Source of the DNA: Pseudofabraea citricarpa
Taxonomy: Eukaryota; Ascomycota; Leotiomycetes; Helotiales; Dermateaceae
Assembly (NCBI GenBank): GCA_029641185.1
Contig: JAPWGK010000010.1
Location: 558,001-622,000, forward strand
Length of the DNA stretch: 64,000 nt
Direction: 5' to 3'
In this document: piece by piece, positions 3,588-28,687 of the stretch
Position numbering within the stretch: position 1 is the stretch's first letter
Layout of the letters: the number at the start of each line of letters is the position of its first letter
Program-made: the position numbers and the translations under genes
The notes under the pieces: model-generated
Seen by the model: the letters and a program-made list of their open reading frames with translations, nothing else
Database searches by the model: none
What the model was told of the DNA's origin: nothing

Positions 3588-3630
3588 TTGTGGTGGAGGT
3601 GGAGGTGGAGGAGGAGGAGGAGGCGGAGGT
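3588..3630. repeat. GGTGGA / GGAGGA triplet-type microsatellite
   Basis: An imperfect purine-rich triplet array (GGT, GGA, GGC units). The opposite strand encodes a polyproline run in a spurious frame. Confidence 0.85.
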
Positions 3631-3845
3631 CGCTGAGTGAGCTGGAGGGGAGAGACGTATTTCCTATTTAGGATAATGATTCTTTTTTTCTTGAGACAGA
3701 CACAGCTAGTAGTGCGAGGAGATCGGAAGAGAGAAGAAGAAGGAGAAGAAGAAGGAGAAGAGAAAGAACGAGGGGAGGGGGAGCAAGCTCTTTTCGTTTT
3801 GATCTGAAGAGTATTTCCTTTTTCATCTCCCATTTCACCTCACCA

Positions 3846-3886
3846 AAGAATCAAGAACCAAGAACCAAGAATCAAGAATCAAAAAC
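3846..3886. repeat. AAGAAYC heptamer-like tandem repeat
   Basis: About five or six adjacent copies of a 7-bp AAGAACC/AAGAATC unit. Confidence 0.8.
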
Positions 3887-4569
3887 CAGAGATAAACGAG
3901 CCCTCCAGGAGGTCGGCCTGCTGCGATGTAGGAGACGAGTCCTCTCTCCGTCCTGCACCCATCTCGGCTGTCTTCGGTATCATTGTAGATTTTACGCTAC
4001 CCTCCTTTCCTTCTCTTTTTTTCCCCCTTCCCGTCCCCTCTTTGGCTTCTCGCATTCTTGGCCCTGCTTGGCTTTCTTTTTGTTTCTGGTGGACTGGAGC
4101 GGGAGGAGTTTTTGTTCACGTCAGTATGGTAGAGGGATGAGTGATTGATCTTCCTCTGCCTTTTCTTTTGGCCGCGTCATGACTTGGTGTTTTTGGATGG
4201 CTGGCTGGCTGCCTAGCTAGCTGTATGCTTCTTGTACTCATCGGCTTTGCATGTGCTTTTCCCCAATTTCTATCTGTCCTGCGTTTGATGGCACCTGTGA
4301 AGGGGCGAGGGTGATTCAATCGCGTGCCCGTCGTGGAGAATCCTGTCGTCTGCATGCCTTTGTTTTCTCTTTTAGTTTTCCTCTCTCTTGTCTTGCTCTC
4401 TGAGAGGGGCTCTGTTCGCTGCAAGGTGGAAGGTAGGTACGCGGATGAGACAGAAGGACGGTCGTGAAATCATCTCTGTACTTTGTTTCGCCCCTCATTT
4501 CTTTGGTTTGGGGTTTGGTTTTCTTTGGTGTTTTATGTCCTGGGGAGCGGGGTGAAGAAGTATATATTT

Positions 4570-4592
4570 AGAGAGAGAGAGAGAGAGAGAGA
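4570..4592. repeat. AG dinucleotide microsatellite
   Basis: A run of about eleven AG/GA units. Further GATA- and GA-rich stretches follow to about 4800. Confidence 0.9.
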
Positions 4593-5104
4593 TGGATAGA
4601 AATGGTGTGAGAGTGAGATAGATAGAGAGGAGTCTAAGAAATTCTAAAGAGAGATAAGACTCTGTTTTGTAGTAATATGAGTGTGTATCTTCTCCTTTTC
4701 ATCTGTTAGAAGAGCTGTGAAAGAACTAATAACAAGTCATCTCATTCAGAATCAATATTCTCTATATGCTTATAGTAAAGAGATAGATAGAGAGAGAGAG
4801 GTGGGATTTAGTCAGAGTGCAAGGAAGGGTGGTCTCGTCGGCTAACTTTTCTCCAAAGCGACGAACTTCTGGTATCATTTCACAACATTTCTAGATCTTG
4901 CTGCTAGCAGAACTTCTGTTGCCAGCCAACATCCTGTTGTCACTCTTATTCATTCGTGTTTTAAGGCAAGTAAAAAAGCAGGCCACGGTCAGAAATTCGT
5001 GAACTAGTGTTGGTTTTTGACAGAAGACGGATCAACAAAGACGCGTACTAAACCATCAGTAGATTTCAAGCTCCAGTTGCCACTGCTGTGACATTTTCTT
5101 TGCT

Positions 5105-5410
5105 TTTGTTACTTTCGGGGAATTATTAGGCCGAGATGTCATTTGTATACCTGCTCTCTGAGACCCCCCTTCGGGGCATAAATAACGCGTGGTATGACAT
5201 ATGGAATCATATCCCCACCTGCTTTGTGATATGATGCTTATTACTTTCGGGAAATAATTGGAGTGCATTGTTATTTTAATTTCTGTTTTCTAACGCTATA
5301 GTGTTTGCTCTTTCGGAAAACAATGAAAGTGTGGTATGATTTATAGAATCATATGCCCGCCATGTGATATTGTCTGTCAATTTTGGGAAATAATCTGAGT
5401 GTGATCTAAT
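5105..5410. repeat. degenerate tandem repeat with a TTTCGGGAAATAAT core
   Basis: A core reading roughly TTTCGGGAAATAAT followed by GAGTG occurs near 5113, 5245, 5312 and 5383. Around the second and fourth copies the similarity extends upstream: GGTATGAC/T, then an ATAGAATCATAT-like block and CCCNCC, at 5191 and 5333. The period is about 66-70 bp, or about 140 bp for the larger unit. No coding capacity is apparent. It may be an old minisatellite or a relic of a mobile element. Confidence 0.65.
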
Positions 5411-5576
5411 TTTCAGGTGTGGTTTGTGGCAGTGCTATCATACTTGCTACCTTTAGTAGATAGGTAATTAGTACATAGTTTCAGATTACAGAAGCACATT
5501 TCAAACTTTTCTCAATATATCAGTGTCTTATTTCATGTTAATCGTTCCAAACTATCCCTTAACTTAAGGAAGGCTT

Positions 5577-6647
5577 TTATCTCGAGCCAATTGTGATTAG
5601 CATCTCCAATTGTGCAATTGCAATTGCCTTGTACAGTTCCTCCGGATTTCCACTCTGAGCATCTAAAACCATTCTCAAGTAATCCTTCCCAGTCACATTG
5701 CAGAGAACCACAGGTAAAAATCCATACTTTACCAAGGAATCTGCCATTAAGGCTCTACCCATCCTTGCATTAGCGACAGGAAACGGATGGATATGGCTGA
5801 AGTAGATGAGCATCTGCGCAGCGCGAAGTATGGGATGTAGATTCCGAGCTGCAGAGCCGAAACAGGCTTTTCGCCAGTTCAGGAAATGTTTCATGCATGC
5901 GGGTGCTTCTGTATGGAATGGGAGGATATTAGATGCTGTCGATTCGGCGCTTCCTGCACTTGAATGAGAATCTCCAGATTTCGTATCCGCACCCCATCCG
6001 TGCAGATAGATGTCTTCGGCTTGCGTACCTCTCAACATGACTGAGCATAGATTGCCGAGGCTTTCGTCTGATAGTGATGTAGAATATGACTTCGTGAGAG
6101 CCTTCTCAACCAGAAATCTCGTCACGAGGATTTGGTTTCTCAGTTCTGCGACTTGGTCCTCATCTGAACCAGGGAGAAGCATTTTCGGCAAAGGCAGTTC
6201 AAGAGCTGCAAGCTGTTCAGAATCGAGGCATACGATATTAGCCGACTCGTATAAAAGTTGAGTTTCCAGTCCGTCATCAATCTTCATCGCGTCCGGAAGG
6301 CTGAGAGTATTTCCACCAAATACAGCACTCTGATGAGCATATTCCACAATCAAGGACCTCACTGCCTCCTTGCGCATTTCTGGTCGTCGCGCAAACCGCT
6401 CCTTCCATTCATCGGCGTGCTCCAGTACCCTTTTCAGATTCTCTTGCGTTTCAAGATCCTTTTCAATATTCTGCGGCGTGGCGTACTCTTCCCATATTTT
6501 CCCACAATCGACCAGGGGATAGTGCTCGGAGGACTTCCCGAGCGGGCTTATGGGAAAGTAAATCGGGTTCAGAAGTTTGCGATGAGTTGCTCGGGTGGAG
6601 AATTTTCGGGGACTCGATTGGAGGATGAGCTTTCGTAGAAAGGTCAT
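5577..6647 (-). CDS. Fic-domain protein with divergent active-site and inhibitory motifs
   Basis: An intronless ORF of 356 residues starting at ATG 6647. Fic enzymes typically transfer AMP or other phosphate-containing groups to target hydroxyls, using HPFx(D/E)GNGRxxR. Here residues 287-298 read HPFPVANARMGR. The catalytic His, the Asn and both Arg are kept, but the metal-binding acidic residue is Val and two loop Gly are Ala. The upstream inhibitory-helix motif (S/T)xxxE(G/N) aligns with SAVFGGN at 107-113, with Gly111 in place of the autoinhibitory Glu. The N-terminus is basic and Ser/Arg-rich (residues 1-25), which could be a mitochondrial presequence. The gene lies 191 bp downstream of the NLR-like gene on the same strand. 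The Fic fold is well supported; catalytic activity is uncertain. Confidence 0.85.
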   Translation of the reverse strand: MTFLRKLILQSSPRKFSTRATHRKLLNPIYFPISPLGKSSEHYPLVDCGKIWEEYATPQNIEKDLETQENLKRVLEHADEWKERFARRPEMRKEAVRSLIVEYAHQSAVFGGNTLSLPDAMKIDDGLETQLLYESANIVCLDSEQLAALELPLPKMLLPGSDEDQVAELRNQILVTRFLVEKALTKSYSTSLSDESLGNLCSVMLRGTQAEDIYLHGWGADTKSGDSHSSAGSAESTASNILPFHTEAPACMKHFLNWRKACFGSAARNLHPILRAAQMLIYFSHIHPFPVANARMGRALMADSLVKYGFLPVVLCNVTGKDYLRMVLDAQSGNPEELYKAIAIAQLEMLITIGSR

Positions 6648-6838
6648 CTTGAGGTTTAACGTGAGCGGCGTGGTATTATTGTTATATGGACGAAGATATT
6701 CTCGGAAGGTAAGATTAAGAACGGGTTGCAGTGAATATTTGAGATGTGCTTGGCTTTTTATCTAAGCGACGCACCAAAATTTAGGTGTACCATCATCACC
6801 ATTTAACGGTAGTTGGAAGAACTATTTTTTACATCGCG

Positions 6839-9800
6839 CTAGTGTACTTCAGTGCCTGCATAGTAACCAATTTCTTGCCAGATATCCACAAAATCACTTT
6901 CCGTCTCCCAACCTGTCTCCTGACCGAAGAGACAAAGCATGGCAGCATATTCCGGATCCGAGCTGAGATAGAGGCTCCAGGATTGTGGGTCACGGTTGCG
7001 AAGTACCCTCATGGATTCCATGACGTCTTTGTCAAATATGGCTCCTTTTTCAAGTAGCAATTTAATTTGCCATGTAAACACATACGGCGCGTTGAAAGAT
7101 ACTGCTAAAGCGTTGCAGCCATATATAGAAGCCATGTTCGGATCGGCATCCCTTTCCAGAAGAATTTCGACTATTTCTACAAGACCTTTTTCGCATGCCA
7201 TATAGAGTGCTGTTTTCCCGTCAAAAACAGAATCGATATCCACCAGGTTGTTTATTATCACTCTGGCTAGAGGAAGCCAAATGTGACGATATGCCTGGAT
7301 ATGACCCGGATTCTGAAGTAAGACATGTAAAGCATTCCCTCTGGGACCTGATCGATTGGGATCAATTCCATGGCTAATGAAGATTTCTGCAAGTAAGTTA
7401 TGAGGAACAAAGCGTTCTAAATCTTGGTCTCGATTCTGGCGGGTAAGTGCCCAGTCTGGCAGAGATAACTGCAAAAGTAGATACCACGGATCTATCCCAC
7501 GCTCGACCAAGGCAGAAAGGCTTGCCCCGTTGCATATAAGTTCCTGTACCTCGGTAGTATGGCCTCGTTTAATACTATCGAGTAGCTGTGCGTTCAGAAA
7601 TCCTTGGTGGTTTTGTAGGAAGCCCAATACATCCCAATTAGCATTCTTTCTCGCATACCACCATGAATCACTAAAGTGTTGAGACTGAACTTCAGCACCA
7701 GCATTGAATAGCAGGCTGAGTATCTCGTCGAGCTAAGAAATATGATGTGACTCGCTCCTTTCTATTGCGATGTAGACTGGCGTCCTCCCTTCACTATCAG
7801 AAATATTAGGATCAGATCCATGATCTAGAAGAATATGTACTAAGTCCGGCGAGAGTTTTTCAACAGCAAGCAGCAATGGATAGCCGTTCTCGTTATGTGG
7901 AAACGCGTGTTCGAGACGCGCTTGGAGCAATATCCTGTTACCATTTTCACTGCCCTGTGATAGTTTTAAGGTGCGCGGGGATCCATCTAACAATCTTCTC
8001 ACCAACTTCGCATTTCCGTTTGACACAGCGCATTCTAATGCTGTCCAGTTTTTATTGTGAATTAGGATGTGACTGTCGTTTACTGATCCTCCGGACTCTA
8101 AAAGAAACTCGACTGCTTCGATGTCTCCACGAAAGGCAGCAACACAAATAGCTGATCCCAGTTCTCGGCGATCTAATATCTCATGTTTGACTATCCGACG
8201 AGCCTCGGGCATATACTCGAAGAATATTGAAAGTCCAAGTTCCTTCAACTCAGGATAAGGACCCAGTTCGCCATGATAGCTCCTATCGACACCAGACCAG
8301 CACATATGTTCGTATGCAGCTCGAACTGTTGCAATTGCTTCGGAATTCCAGAGTCTCTTAACTTGGTCCCAAATTTCAGGCCCAATTTCATCCCGAATAT
8401 GTTGCACAGTATGTAGAATCGCATATCTTGTGAAAGTCGACTCGTCGAAGTCATCTTCGCTGAGCTCTATGACGCCATGTGAGTTTTCGGCCGAATAGTC
8501 TTCTAAAATCATCCTGAACTCAGGCTGACCAAGAGATCTTTTTGATTTAGAGTTGTGTTTTGTGACCAGATGGTTTGCACAAGTTCTTGAGATTTGCCCT
8601 TGTGCTGCTGGAAAATAGGTAGAGAGTTCTCCCAGGAAAAAGCTTGCTGCTGTGTGATGCACCAATTGTATAATACCCCTGTCGTTGTCAATGACAATGA
8701 GACCTGCGCAGACGGAGACTATGAAACTAGGATCAATCAGAAATTCCTCGTCCCATTCAGGATCATCTTGCTGGATTGCCAAGGCTTGTTGTAGCTGACG
8801 GACCCGGAGGTGCTCATAGGCATAGCAAACCCAAGTAAGAATCATCATAGCAAGCTCAAAATCTTCTTCGCTCTGATTTTTAATTCTATCAAGGGTGTCT
8901 CGATATGTTTCGTCAAGTTCAACTGGCAATTTGTGCACTGCACTACGAACTGCAGCCTTGCTTCGCAAAGCTCTCTTCGCGAGAGTATCTAAATGTAACT
9001 TAACAAGGAGGAACCTAGATGCAATTAGCAGACTATCTTCAAGTAAATCTGATTAACAAGCTTACATCCCCTGACTTTTATCTATAAGTGTATCTTTGAT
9101 AGTGCTCAAGAGCTCAGAATCGCCTGTTATGTGCTGTCTCAGTTTCCTATCCGAATTGAGCCTTTTGATAATGTACCTCCCTAGATCATCATCATGAGCA
9201 GCTATGGTAATCTTTTGAGCACTCTGAAAATTCTCTTCGATGGCTGAGATAAGACGAGAAGTGACCATTAATTGAATGTTTGGCTTGACTTCCTGAAGCT
9301 CTTGGACAATAGCTTCTAGAACTTCACTCTCAGCACACTCATCCAGAGCATCTATCACAATGAAGCTTTTCTCAAAGTGCTTCAATGCAGCTCTGAAAAC
9401 CCTCCGGCTTTCTGAAAGTCCAGGTAATCTTGTAGTAGTCGAATGATTTTCGAATACTTTATATACTTCAGATGGCATGGCAGTTTGCTGGCTAAGAAGC
9501 TGACTGGCAAGGCTACATAGGATGGCTTCTACACTCTGTGACGATATATCTTTGTAGTTGAAGTAAATCCAAGCTACAGCCTGGGCGGATTTGCAAGTGC
9601 GGATGCTCTCCTGCAGGTTATTGATTGCTAATGAGGCAATCGAACTCTTCCCTGCGCCCGGAATCCCAGTACAGAGAAGAGCATCATAACTACAAGACCG
9701 CCACTGCTGATATTCTGTACTTCCTAGAAACCATTCGCCAGTACCGGGCTCAACCTTGTCAAAGATCTGAGCCTGAGGAGACGTGAAATTCGGATGCGAT

Positions 9801-10554
9801 AGCCATGAAACGATTTTTTTGTGGTCTTCAACTGTCATAAATATTAATACAAGGACAAAATAAAGCCTAATCGCTTGAGAATTCTTATTGTGCTGTGTAG
9901 AATCTTGACTCAAAACATAGAATTGAAAAGTGATTCTATTGTCTTACCTTCGGCTTTCAAGTTGAGGTTTGAAATTCCTGCCACTACCTCCTGGGATTCA
10001 TCGTGCACCAATTTCAACTCGCTTTGAATAGCAACCGTGTCTTCTTTGATAGAGCGAGTCTCGTTGGCAATCAGTTCGGTCGTGACTTTAAGTGCCATAG
10101 AATATTGCTCAATAGAGGCTAGAATTTGCACCTGGTCATTGGACAAAGCCAATGCCAAAAGAGACTTCTGTCGCTCGATGATTTGAATAACATCCTTTGC
10201 TTGTTTCTTGTTGAATGGCCACTTCAAGGACTTTGTCAGACGTTTATAGTTTGAAGCCGAAGCAGAAACAGAAAACGCGTCTTTCAACTGAAGGAGTAAA
10301 ACTCTTGATTGTTCCAGGATACCATCAGGCTTCTGAGTTAGTAGTTGCAGGGTCGCTGACCACGATTTCATCTCATTCGCATCTTCTAATGTATCTTGAA
10401 GTGTCTCAAGTAAGCCCCTTGTAGTCATGAGCTCGACAGTCAAATCTCTACACTCTTTTGGCGCATCTTTGACGTCGCGCAAATACGTAACAACAGTGCT
10501 CGTCAGTTGAAGAACAGCAATTACACTGGCCGTAAGACTTAAAGGATCTGCCAT
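6839..10554 (-). CDS. NLR-like STAND protein (HeLo-like / NACHT / ankyrin), interrupted by one in-frame TAG
   Basis: Exons: 10554-9948, 9831-9066 and 9014-6839; introns are 116 and 51 nt. Residues 1-200 resemble the HeLo-like N-terminal domain of fungal STAND proteins (start MADPLSLTASVIAVLQL). NACHT follows, with Walker A GIPGAGKS at about 257-264 and Walker B FIVIDALDEC near 373. Then come a winged-helix-like part and C-terminal ankyrin repeats (EAVEFLLESGGSVN, LVHILLDHGSDPN, EIVEILLERDADPN). Proteins of this plan act in fungal non-self recognition and regulated cell death. Codon 885 (7735-7733) is TAG, and ankyrin-like sequence continues in the same frame for about 297 codons to 6839. With the TAG the product is 884 residues; read through, it would be 1,182. 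No intron restores the frame at that site. It may be a null allele, a pseudogene or a readthrough gene. Confidence 0.8.
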
Positions 10555-25091: not shown

Positions 25092-27587
25092 ATGGTAGCA
25101 ATTAACAGTTTCAAAGCCAGCGGCCTGATGTTCTGCAGCATCGTTCTACTTCTGGCCAATGTGATCTCCGCAGCTTCAACGAGGAAATTTTTATCTCCTA
25201 GAACTACCAATGGAACTAAGGACCATCCGTACAGATTCAATTCTGTAGCCGTGACCGGTGGTGGGTTTATTACAGGTATCATTGGTCACCCAGACGAGCC
25301 AAATCTGTTGTACACGAGAACAGACATTGGAAGTTCTTATAGATGGAGCCAGGAAGAAGACAAATGGCTTCCTTTGACGGATTTCATCAGTGAAGCCAAT
25401 ATCAATTGGCTTGGAACCGAGAGTTTTGCTCTGGATCCAACAAACACCAACATGCTGTATCTAGCTCAGGGCCAATACACGACATCAAACAACTCGGTGT
25501 TTTTCGTCTCAGAAGACAAGGGGGATACTTTCTCTATCTATCCAGCTCCTTTCCCCATGGGATCTAACGAACTTGGTCGCAATAATGGAGAGCGGTTAGC
25601 AGTTAATCCTTTCAACCCCAATGAGCTATACTTTGGCACACGTACCGAAGGATTGTGGAAGAGCACAGATCAAGCAAAGACTTGGACCAACGTAACAGAC
25701 TTTCCCGATGCTTTTGCCAACGGTATTGGAATGATCTTCGTCGTTTTTGACCCAACTCATGAGGGCACGATCTATGTAGGTGCCAACGTACCGAATGGCA
25801 TCTACTTCACAACGGACGGCGGTGCAAGTTGGGACGTAGTCCCAGGCCAGCCATTAGAGTGGACTGACGAGGTTCTAAATTTTGCAAATTCTACTCCTAC
25901 CACACCTCCACTGAGCACAGGTCCTCAGCCAATGAGAGCTTCTTTGGCATCTAATGGAGTTCTGTACGTCACGTACGGAGATGGACCCGGTCCTTACGGT
26001 GTCTCTTATGGAATTGTTCAGAAATTCGATACTACCACATCAACATGGACTGACATCACACCTGGCGCCAATAATTCCTACCCGCTTCCATACACCCCAC
26101 AAGCATTTCCCCGGGGTGGTTACAATGGATTGAGTGTTGCTCATGATGATCCTGACACGCTCGTTGTAGTATCTCTAGATCGCGATCCTGGACCAGCAAT
26201 CGACAGCATGTACTTCTCCCGAGATGGCGGGAATTCATGGAAAGATGTTTCGCAGCTCGGAACCCCATATCAAACCTATGAAGATGGTGGGTTCTGGGGA
26301 CATCCAGTGAAAGAAGCGGCTTTGAAGAACGGGACTGCAGTGCCATGGCTGAGCTTCAACAATGCCGAAAGATGGGGTGGCTATGGAGCTCCAAGCCCAA
26401 ATATTGGACAGACGAAATTCGGCTGGTGGATGTCAGCTGTGCTTATCGATCCGAATAATTCAGATCATGTCATGTACGGCACTGGAGCAACTATCTGGTC
26501 TACTGACACCATTTCCCGAGTCGATAATGACTGGGCTCCAACTTGGTATGTACAAGCTCAGGGCATTGAAATGACAGCCATTCTTGCTCTCGTCAGCCCA
26601 ACAGAGGGAGCAAATTTGCTCAGTGGATTTGGCGACATCCACGGATTTAGACATGATGATTTGTTCACACCACAACCGATGTTCGGCGAACCGCAATTCT
26701 CCAATCTCGATGATCTCGATTGGGCTGGACTACATCCTAATGTTGTGGTCAAAGTTGGTTCTACCGGGTATCCATTCATAGATAGTTGTCCCATGGGAGC
26801 AATCTCAACAGATGGTGGCTTAGGATGGAACAGATTCGACACATGCGCGCCACAGACCAACAACAGTTTCCAAACTGGCGGAACGATTGCTGTTGATGCT
26901 TCAGGGGAGCATCTCGTTTGGAGTACAGGTGGTCTTCAACGTTTCCGCAACGAAACTGGGCCATATTTCTCTGCTGATTATGGCAAAGAATGGTCTGCAC
27001 CCGAAGGTCTCAACATTGGCACCGGCAACATAAGTTCAGACAAAGTTCAACCAAAAACCTTTTACGCCTATGATTCTGGTGTCTGGTACGTCAGTGATGA
27101 TGGTGGAGCCTCTTACAACTCTAGCAAGGCAAGCGATATTGGTTTGCCGGAAGATACTGGAGCCATCCCGATTGTGAGCTTCAAGGATGCAGGTGAGATT
27201 TGGCTTCCCCTTGGTGAAGATGGTGTGTACCATACAAAGGATTTTGGTGCGAGCTGGACAAAGATTGGCCATGAAGGTTTGTCCACAACTATCTTTTCCG
27301 TGGGAGCTCCAGCACCAGGCTCTGTAGAGCCTGCACTATACCTGTGGGGAAATACAACAAATGTTGATCCTGTGACTGGTCTTTTCCGCTCAGATGATAA
27401 TGGGGCTAGCTGGGTTCGTGTCAATGATGAGGCTCATCAGTATGGTGGACCACGAATTGTTCAAGGTGATCCAAGAGTGTATGGGCGTGTTTACCAAGGT
27501 TATTTCGGCAGGGGTATTATCTATGCTGATATTGACACGGAAAGCAATAGCACAAGTGGTGTACGACCTGGAACTTATGGCATATAA
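25092..27587 (+). CDS. GH74 xyloglucanase / oligoxyloglucan-active cellobiohydrolase, secreted
   Basis: An intronless ORF of 831 residues. The first ATG in frame is at 25092; earlier codons are open only from TTG. Residues 1-27 form a signal peptide (hydrophobic LMFCSIVLLLANVISA). Two seven-bladed beta-propeller halves follow, with repeated SxDGGxSW-type BNR signatures (TTDGGASW, SRDGGNSW, SDDGGASYN, SDDNGASW). The catalytic Asp pair maps to LYTRTDIGSSYRW near the start and LLSGFGDIHGF in the middle. The enzyme cleaves the glucan backbone of plant xyloglucan. No C-terminal carbohydrate-binding module is present. Endo- versus reducing-end-specific action depends on an active-site loop that cannot be judged here. 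Confidence 0.95.
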   Translation: MVAINSFKASGLMFCSIVLLLANVISAASTRKFLSPRTTNGTKDHPYRFNSVAVTGGGFITGIIGHPDEPNLLYTRTDIGSSYRWSQEEDKWLPLTDFISEANINWLGTESFALDPTNTNMLYLAQGQYTTSNNSVFFVSEDKGDTFSIYPAPFPMGSNELGRNNGERLAVNPFNPNELYFGTRTEGLWKSTDQAKTWTNVTDFPDAFANGIGMIFVVFDPTHEGTIYVGANVPNGIYFTTDGGASWDVVPGQPLEWTDEVLNFANSTPTTPPLSTGPQPMRASLASNGVLYVTYGDGPGPYGVSYGIVQKFDTTTSTWTDITPGANNSYPLPYTPQAFPRGGYNGLSVAHDDPDTLVVVSLDRDPGPAIDSMYFSRDGGNSWKDVSQLGTPYQTYEDGGFWGHPVKEAALKNGTAVPWLSFNNAERWGGYGAPSPNIGQTKFGWWMSAVLIDPNNSDHVMYGTGATIWSTDTISRVDNDWAPTWYVQAQGIEMTAILALVSPTEGANLLSGFGDIHGFRHDDLFTPQPMFGEPQFSNLDDLDWAGLHPNVVVKVGSTGYPFIDSCPMGAISTDGGLGWNRFDTCAPQTNNSFQTGGTIAVDASGEHLVWSTGGLQRFRNETGPYFSADYGKEWSAPEGLNIGTGNISSDKVQPKTFYAYDSGVWYVSDDGGASYNSSKASDIGLPEDTGAIPIVSFKDAGEIWLPLGEDGVYHTKDFGASWTKIGHEGLSTTIFSVGAPAPGSVEPALYLWGNTTNVDPVTGLFRSDDNGASWVRVNDEAHQYGGPRIVQGDPRVYGRVYQGYFGRGIIYADIDTESNSTSGVRPGTYGI

Positions 27588-28476
27588 GCTCTCATATAAC
27601 TCAAGTACTATGACTTGAACCTAGAATACTTGTAAATTATCTCATTCTTAATTTGGCACTTCATTCGCTCAAAAATGGCTTTTCTTAGACGCGTGAGCCA
27701 ATACTGATTGACCTGCTTCATTTCTTCTTACAAAAACTGGTCAGCCATCACGTTATGACAAGCGTTACGGAAGGTATCAATGGCAAATATAACACGGGGC
27801 TTACGACAGACTGCTATGATATTAAATAGTGTTATATCTGCATCAATTCTGTGCGATATATCATGTTAGGCACTCCAGACTCCAGTCTCAGATAAAGCAA
27901 GCAAAGCCCATGGTATCGTTCCTGTTTAGGACAAGTTTGAAATTTAATTTAAAATGAAGTGCGTACCCAGCTGTGGCGAGAAGATTATTAAACTAGCAAA
28001 TTACACACTTGATCTTGGGACTGAAATGCCATCAAGTATCATGCACACCAACTGAACAGATACAGAGATACTACCGAACAAGTCTGTGACCAACGGAAAG
28101 GAAATAAATATTACTTCGATATGTCACAAAAAACAAAACTTGTACAGGGACCAGAGGTAGACAAACGATTAAATTTTATAATTAGCGAGCAAGTATGCTC
28201 AAAGATCAATACCAGATGAATCCCAGTGCCCGATATACCAAAACCCCCTACCAACAAGAAGGGTACCTAGTTCGTGAGTGGGTTTACGGTATCAAGCAAG
28301 TGGGTGGGGGGGTTTGTGACCTACGATTACGATCCACCAGACGAATTCGCTAAACTTTAGCGACGGCCTTAAGGCTCGTAGATTTTTAATCCCGTTGCTT
28401 GTGAAAGAGCGAAGATTTAAGTTTTCGACCGGTATATGTTGAAATAAGGAATTTCGGACAACAAATTTCCTTCACC
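27588..28476. other. intergenic between GH74 and the interrupted tRNA locus
   Basis: AT-rich, with no supported ORF. The 3' processing region of GH74 is expected near the left end. A TATATG at 28432-28437 lies about 40 bp before the tRNA 5' end. Confidence 0.5.
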
Positions 28477-28674
28477 GCCCGGCTGGTAAGTCGATTCCAT
28501 CCATGTATCAATCCGAATTTTCTCTAATGCGAACTCCAGGCACAATTGGTTAGCGCGTGGGCCTTTTATGATCTTGCATCAAAGGTAGCCCAAGGGTAAG
28601 CAGCTACATTCTTACAAACATCATCAAATACTAATGATCAACCGCAGTTGAGAGTTCGAGCCTCTCGTCGGGCG
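28477..28674 (+). tRNA. tRNA-Lys(UUU) gene interrupted by two spliceosomal-type introns plus a canonical tRNA intron
   Basis: Segments 28477-28485, 28540-28568, 28587-28595 and 28648-28674 join into a 74-nt cloverleaf. The acceptor is GCCCGGC with GTCGGGC (one G-T wobble) and discriminator G. The D stem GCAC/GCGC has one A-C mismatch, and the D loop is AATTGGTTA. The anticodon stem is TGGGC/GCCCA with loop CTTTTAA, reading UUU. The variable loop is AGGTT. The T arm is GAGAG-TTCGAGC-CTCTC. Interruption A (28486-28539) has GTAAGT, CTAAT and CCAG. Interruption B (28596-28647) has GTAAGC, ACTAAT and GCAG. An 18-nt intron (28569-28586) follows position 37 and contains AAAGG, complementary to the anticodon region. 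The B box is intact, and seven T follow at 28680. Each junction falls exactly where the cloverleaf needs it. It could instead be an invaded, silent tRNA copy. Confidence 0.75.
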
Positions 28675-28687
28675 TTTAATTTTTTTG
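28675..28687 (+). terminator. Pol III-type oligo-T terminator
   Basis: TTTAATTTTTTT begins directly after the discriminator base of the tRNA-Lys. A run of at least four T is the usual RNA polymerase III stop signal. Confidence 0.65.

Follow-up and report, generated by a model that had tools for sequence, protein, structure and literature searches.

The window, i.e. the whole 64-kb stretch of DNA that was analysed (G000:C2:558001-622000, from a 44-Mb genome in 43 contigs), carries on its forward strand a tRNA-Lys(UUU) gene in three separated exons. The elements of the locus are listed below in positions of the window, with the ground for each assignment in brackets.

28433..28438, + strand, TATA-like TATATG about 40 nt 5′ of exon 1 (read directly)
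28459..28463, + strand, CAACA motif 18 nt 5′ of exon 1 (common to other tRNA genes of the genome)
28477..28485, + strand, exon 1 of tRNA-Lys(UUU), nt 1-9 (Aragorn on the joined exons; same as the intact paralog)
28486..28539, + strand, spliceosomal-type intron 1, 54 nt, site 9/10 (GTAAGT, CTAAT 11 nt from the end, CAG; paralog without it)
28540..28595, + strand, exon 2 region, nt 10-46, enclosing the 37/38 intron (Aragorn, paralog alignment)
28565..28567, + strand, anticodon TTT (Aragorn)
28569..28586, + strand, ordinary 18-nt tRNA intron, site 37/38 (Aragorn; the paralog's has 17 nt and a different sequence)
28596..28647, + strand, spliceosomal-type intron 2, 52 nt, site 46/47 in the variable loop (GTAAGC, CTAAT 12 nt from the end, CAG; paralog without it)
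28648..28674, + strand, exon 3 (nt 47-73), containing the T arm and, at about 28653-28663, the B box (Aragorn, paralog)
28680..28686, + strand, T7 run, Pol III-type terminator (read directly)

Both a B box and a T-run terminator can be read from the sequence of the gene, while an intact A box at the usual spacing is missing because intron 1 splits it at 9/10; the half that is kept is preceded by CAG, not CTG. The upstream TATATG is a possible TFIIIB site, and in the minimum-energy fold AAAGG of the 37/38 intron pairs with CCTTT of the anticodon region. An earlier note on this DNA had given the same exon joins, lengths, GTAAG starts and CAG ends for the two larger introns, a CTAAT near the 3′ end of both, the 18-nt intron after position 37, a discriminator G and an oligo-T run (here T7); all of these are present as it described them.

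Recognition of the gene depends on removal of the introns. No tRNA is called in the raw locus by Aragorn at its default threshold or by Rfam at its cut-offs, and lowering the Aragorn threshold to 80% yields only an Ala call, unrelated and with an intron of 119 nt; the joined exons are called as tRNA-Lys(TTT) with an 18-nt intron. When intron 2 alone is removed, Aragorn makes no call at the default threshold; when only intron 1 is removed, it makes a strained Ile call or, with introns limited to 70 nt, a Lys call with a 66-nt intron that scores 101.2, against 110.8 when both introns are removed. The cloverleaf said to be complete after joining holds as far as the Aragorn call goes and is less perfect than claimed: the D stem has one A-C mismatch, present in the intact paralog too, and in the minimum-energy fold computed for the joined precursor the anticodon and T arms are kept and the acceptor and D arms fused, so that no full cloverleaf is formed (z −1.40, with 19/200 shuffles equally good). 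The case for the cloverleaf rests on the paralog and on Aragorn rather than on a plain energy fold.

The paralog was found with the 74-nt mature tRNA-Lys sequence as query, which matches the genome at two places, namely the window and G000:C41:413037-413127. The latter is an uninterrupted tRNA-Lys(TTT) gene with a 17-nt 37/38 intron; all 74 mature bases are the same in the two genes, and the 37/38 introns are unlike. This agreement makes the exon boundaries of the window gene exact, with a one-base register ambiguity that is settled by GT..AG. The upstream flanks of the pair show no clear similarity (best local score 22 within 300 nt, where 95% of shuffles reach at most 21 and the maximum is 25; score 12 within 60 nt, with a 95% shuffle level of 17). 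Downstream, 20 T-rich nucleotides are still somewhat alike (score 25 within 60 nt, where no shuffle exceeds 22), and over 300 nt the score does not exceed the shuffle maximum. Six Lys-CUU genes were read besides in the same genome. The intact Lys-UUU gene leaves unsupported the earlier proposal that tRNA-Lys maturation as a whole hangs on the spliceosome, and the window copy could be dispensable.

Elsewhere in the window, a GH74 protein encoded at 25092-27587 is 94% identical to a Phlyctema vagabunda protein and 78% to one from Coleophoma cylindrospora. Together with the ORC4 protein described below, this places the DNA in a helotialean fungus near P. vagabunda yet distinct from it. Adjoining reading frames on the minus strand at 5580-9943, with an NACHT-like ATPase, ankyrin repeats and a Fic domain, are possibly a single NLR-like gene with a Fic end.

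Interrupted tRNA genes in the rest of the genome

A survey pattern that consists of a T arm followed by a T run, and that does not need a full cloverleaf, was applied to the whole genome. It gave 66 plus 34 matches (12 and 9 for the reversed-pattern control), corresponding by hand count to 88 places, 76 of which were read. Nine of these 76 are tRNA genes that score properly only after removal of one GT..AG piece:

C23:1614948 and C23:1627695, Pro-UGG, intron site 4/5, acceptor stem
C10:185247, Pro-CGG, intron site 7/8
C10:275671, Thr-AGU, intron site 19/20, D loop
C28:359566, C34:76647 and C34:218392, Thr-AGU (three copies), intron site 23/24
C39:404452, Thr-CGU (locus L151), intron site 33/34, directly 5′ of the anticodon
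C39:889113, Glu-UUC, intron site 49/50

The observation made at one gene is confirmed and larger than first noted. Together with the window gene there are at least 10 genes with 11 introns on six contigs; the eight sites (4/5, 7/8, 9/10, 19/20, 23/24, 33/34, 46/47 and 49/50, numbered by hand) do not include 37/38. The figure of ten is a lower bound, as 76 of the 88 places were read and as other B-box spellings, that of the window gene included, fall outside the survey pattern; RF00005 scans, for their part, miss L001 and therefore do not constitute a tRNA census. An ordinary 37/38 intron is present as well in the interrupted Lys, Pro, Thr-CGU and Glu genes.

In their raw form the Pro and Glu loci receive no Aragorn call, and the four Thr-AGU loci are taken for Ile or Val genes, with scores of 100.2-102.9, against 120.5 as Thr after removal of the intron. 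The raw Thr-CGU locus is called as tRNA-Tyr(GTA), with a single anticodon-loop intron of 64 nt (111.0), and in its shortest form the Tyr call reaches 118.5 versus 117.0 for the best Thr calls printed. The Thr-CGU reading is nevertheless preferred, because the removed piece shows GTAAGT...TACTAAC...CAG, because the leftover CGTAT...ATACG pairing resembles an ordinary 37/38 intron, and because a G1-C72 pair does not suit a eukaryotic tRNA-Tyr. If this locus (G000:C39:404470-404650) is Thr(CGU), its intron abuts the anticodon, and GUA would stand in the anticodon position of the unspliced RNA.

Splice signals of the tRNA introns and of a U6-like locus

All 11 introns start with GTAAG or GTACG, end with AG and are 50-66 nt long. 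Their 3′ ends are CAG in eight cases, TAG in one and AAG in the two Pro-UGG introns, which do not conform to YAG. A branch-like (C/T)TAA(C/T) lies 10-16 nt from the end in 11/11, as CTAAC or CTAAT and once as TTAAC (L149). On these sequence features the introns are filed as U2-type spliceosomal. The earlier note had likened the two window introns to the mRNA introns of the genome in signals and length, and this likeness holds for the three introns used in the comparison, those of the ORC4 gene in the window, which measure 47, 49 and 49 nt, have CTAAT or CTAAC 9-10 nt from the end and begin with GTAAGT, GTAATT and GTTTGT. They were placed by alignment to two homologs, with GT/AG set by eye. A rough gene model of ORC4 gives 64% protein identity to P. 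vagabunda ORC4.

The positions of the introns were examined by deletion scans, in which all deletions of 40-89 nt (about 3,600-6,100 per locus) were scored with Aragorn. The exact GT..AG cut was first or joint first among the deletions printed in 8/11 tests. It was not among the six best deletions printed for Lys intron 2, the Thr-AGU gene L121 and the Thr-CGU gene; the position of Lys intron 2 is fixed by the intact twin despite its rank.

A U6-like locus of the same genome (L154, G000:C2:955531-955692) is also cut, by a 50-nt GTAAGC...CTAAT...CAG piece. This piece, GTAAGC...ATACTAATCATACAACAG, is placed between AGAGAAGA and TTAGCATGG, and signs of more introns are seen on both sides, with CTAAC...TAG just 5′ of TCAAATTTG and GTAAGTAAC after GGAT. 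With the Rfam U6 model, C2:955536-955687 gives a match that extends over 152 nt and scores 33.2 bits, below the cut-off of 44; sub-threshold U6 matches occur also in 7/14 prokaryote controls. The locus is taken as U6 because of its sequence, which contains the U6 core, and not because of the Rfam score. A spliceosomal intron in a fungal U6 snRNA gene was reportedly described by Tani & Ohshima in 1989, and several gains of such introns in fungal U6 genes are, to go by its title, the subject of Canzler et al. 2016. L154 would thus be a precedent within the same genome for an interrupted non-coding RNA. The fungal U6 precedent put forward in the earlier note stands, with U6 cases cited in PMC5832005 and L154 likewise cut.

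Probable expression and age of the interrupted genes

The exact interruption of the genes, the splice signals, patterns that look like selection and the failure to detect intact copies for three isoacceptors belong to what is seen in the sequence. Taken together, they make it very probable that a functional nuclear tRNA-Lys(UUU) gene lies at this locus of the window, interrupted at 9/10 and 46/47 by U2-type spliceosomal introns and at 37/38 by a tRNA-endonuclease intron, and that it is one of at least ten tRNA genes of this fungus with spliceosomal introns. Transcription, splicing and the order of steps are what we infer. Shared flanks suggest that transcription would begin at an upstream start element, end at the oligo-T terminator and most probably be carried out by Pol III. 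The spliceosome would then take out the GTAAG...CTAAY...AG pieces, as the conserved signals indicate; without this step no acceptor, D or T structure could form. By analogy with established biology, RNase P/Z trimming and excision of the 37/38 intron by the tRNA endonuclease would follow; this enzyme requires a folded tRNA body, so its step probably comes after that of the spliceosome. The predicted product is the same, in sequence, as that of the intact gene.

Spliceosomal introns normally belong to Pol II transcripts, and the introns at 4/5, 7/8 and 9/10, which precede or sit in the A box and shift it some 50-66 nt from the 5′ end, could disturb Pol III initiation. The same spliceosomal removal from a transcript made by RNA polymerase II instead of III is the best of the alternatives and is still unlikely, given an upstream CAACA and a downstream T run as in uninterrupted tRNA genes, and given introns precedented in U6, U3 and Pol I rRNA transcripts. 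CAACA is found within 45 nt upstream in 9/10 interrupted genes, in 34/66 genes called uninterrupted by Aragorn (a set that includes some doubtful tRNA-like calls) and at 134/2000 random window positions. In the four genes with an intron before or within the A box it lies 17, 17, 23 and 18 nt before nt 1, compared with a median of 15.5 (quartiles 10 and 22) in uninterrupted genes, so that the start signal seems to keep its distance from the 5′ end and not from the A box. A T5 run is present within 45 nt downstream in 59/66 uninterrupted genes and at 86/2000 random positions. It was found in 8/10 interrupted genes and, for the other two, where the fetched piece was too short, in the survey match; in nine of the ten it is there by selection, as the survey pattern requires a T run. 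These shared flanks favour Pol III transcription with an upstream start element.

Less probable still is that the loci are invaded silent copies, i.e. now-dead tRNA genes that received introns recently and whose exons are intact for want of time. Intact counterparts exist for Lys-UUU and for Pro-UGG (L150, C41:642380), and a further full-length Pro-UGG match, known from the mature-sequence search, lies at C23:1629531; as it spans the full length (query 217-288), it is not a third interrupted Pro-UGG gene. The earlier note had tied silence of the window copy to such an intact gene together with a lack of junction-spanning reads. The intact Lys-UUU gene is indeed there, and the silent-copy conclusion fits poorly with nine further interrupted tRNA genes. 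Exon decay relative to functional copies is nil, with 0 differences in 74 bases for Lys, in 72 for the four Thr-AGU copies and in 71 for the two interrupted Pro-UGG genes compared with the intact one. Recent insertion into a dead gene would leave introns that are alike, or like a source. The three Thr-AGU introns at the same site agree in 20/35, 23/35 and 20/31 interior columns, where shuffles average 17.7-18.6 and reach at most 21, 22 and 24, so that one pair is slightly above its shuffles; the two Pro-UGG introns agree in 19/29 (shuffle mean 15.2, maximum 20). In the Thr-AGU introns both splice sites and the branch motif are conserved. Interiors near shuffle level beside intact exons and splice signals suggest old insertions; such a pattern would be expected of long-resident introns whose removal is selected for, in genes whose product is selected for as well. 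Exon identity could come in part from gene conversion, and introns at the same site could be independent gains. With the raw window locus as query against its own genome (two candidates scored), only the locus itself and the exons and 3′ flank of the Lys paralog are matched; no source copy of intron 1 or 2 was detected, and recent introner copies were rejected on that ground.

Additional evidence against silent copies comes from genes of which the copies found are all interrupted. Five mature sequences used as query against the genome (11 candidates scored) led to four Thr-AGU places, one Thr-CGU place and one Pro-CGG place, all of them interrupted, and to no intact Thr-AGU, Thr-CGU or Pro-CGG gene of the same sequence. 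Intact copies are detectable by this query, as two full-length Pro-UGG places were found; it is not exhaustive, a Glu-like place at C43:1361261, with the same 3′ end as the interrupted Glu gene, being absent from its matches.

Slightly less probable again is that the 11 pieces are extra tRNA-endonuclease introns of the bulge-helix-bulge type at odd sites, as in some archaea and red algae. Odd-site tRNA introns are known in algae and archaea, and many such introns of the Guillardia theta nucleomorph are without a defined motif, according to PMC3978253; in the present genome, the Lys, Pro, Thr-CGU and Glu genes bear a 37/38 intron too. The signals speak differently: GT..AG and a branch-like motif are found in 11/11 of the odd-site introns, against GT..AG in 0/39 anticodon-loop introns of at least 8 nt from the set of loci read, in any register from −2 to +2 (because the two Glu genes of L137 were treated as one, the test of one of these 39 was made on its neighbour). 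We know of no role of GT..AG and branch signals for the tRNA endonuclease.

Chance resemblance or an assembly artefact has a negligible probability, with ten genes on six contigs following a single logic and with GT..AG removal giving a tRNA in 0/600 random window segments (312 candidate removals) and in 0/20 other T-arm or odd loci, five of which had any candidate intron.

The earlier interpretation is thus partly supported: the coupling to splicing that was proposed for lysine decoding moves to threonine, and to Pro-CGG, where all copies found are interrupted. As the Thr-AGU, Thr-CGU and Pro-CGG genes found are interrupted without exception, reading of the Thr codons ACU and ACC, and possibly of ACG and CCG, may depend on splicing. 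On balance, it is somewhat more probable than not that the spliceosome is obligatory for tRNA processing in this lineage, in which case, with U6 cut too, splicing capacity, spliceosomal RNA and translation would form a closed loop.

Known systems, consequences and other tRNA-like loci

Nuclear tRNA introns are the standard example of splicing by protein enzymes at one fixed site. Among the literature matches listed (titles and starts of abstracts, with subscription papers and preprints mostly outside), no report of spliceosomal introns in nuclear tRNA genes was found, and no such case is reported in the available parts of PMC11782384 and PMC13149111. According to PMC8450103, eukaryotic tRNA genes have a single intron at most. 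Several introns per tRNA gene at sites beyond 37/38, as seen here, occur in red algae, nucleomorphs and archaea (PMC3978253 and PMC8450103), mostly as bulge-helix-bulge introns that are treated as endonuclease-cut, whereas those described here have GT..branch..AG. Fungal U6 introns resemble the tRNA case as spliceosomal-type introns in a short non-coding RNA made by Pol III, with several reported gains, and differ in that the host is an snRNA and a second, endonuclease-type intron is missing. Fungal U3 snoRNA has short, normal spliceosomal introns within a structured non-coding RNA, as here, in a host that is not a tRNA (PMC5832005). Ascomycete and lichen rDNA introns (Bhattacharya et al. 2000, cited in PMC8527467) are likewise ectopic spliceosomal introns in an RNA of translation, with rRNA and Pol I in place of tRNA; yeast removes those of lichens from Pol I transcripts, according to PMC8527467. 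SRP RNA was dropped as a precedent, since PMC4605306 argues that its insertions are not introns.

What is new is the tRNA as host of spliceosomal introns. A second, unrelated splicing route would thereby enter tRNA biogenesis, with the acceptor stem and the centre of the anticodon loop among its eight sites, and would act on a transcript that looks Pol III-made. If this is true, decoding is tied to splicing capacity, and the mRNA-splicing machine is needed for part of the translation apparatus. The genes could serve to examine whether the spliceosome depends on Pol II and, because the four Thr-AGU paralogs have introns at two sites, to study intron gain. Aragorn and Rfam miss or mislabel such genes; fungal tRNAs that seem to be 'missing' may therefore exist in interrupted form.

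Several other candidates were set aside. L100 (G000:C3:1287764), the 3′ part of a tRNA-Arg(UCU), was counted as a fragment, with no candidate intron and with unlike DNA upstream, and the odd Aragorn calls at L130 and L088 have no candidate GT..AG piece. Four calls were judged not to be Thr genes: L088 Thr(AGT) has an irregular stem and does not resemble the Thr-AGU family, the exons of L128 Thr(AGT) are those of Ser-AGA genes and its intron is misplaced, the anticodon arm of L047 Thr(CGT), CAGTCTCATA...ATCTG, is presumably that of elongator Met(CAU), and L146 Thr(GGT) is an odd tRNA-like call. Other tRNA-like loci were observed in passing: L104-L112 (G000:C7:82150-82681) form a cluster of tRNA-like genes that share with L123 (G000:C11:111316) a GATGCGGT D arm, a long variable region and Asp or Gly calls by Aragorn, and L023, L045 and L049 are tRNA-like with 8-nt anticodon loops (Aragorn '???'). 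Finally, L016 and L017 (G000:C12:2400-4200 and 113700-115500) each contain three Arg-TCG genes and one Arg-ACG gene, in mirror order, about 110 kb apart; these clusters, close to a contig end, are probably part of an inverted duplication.
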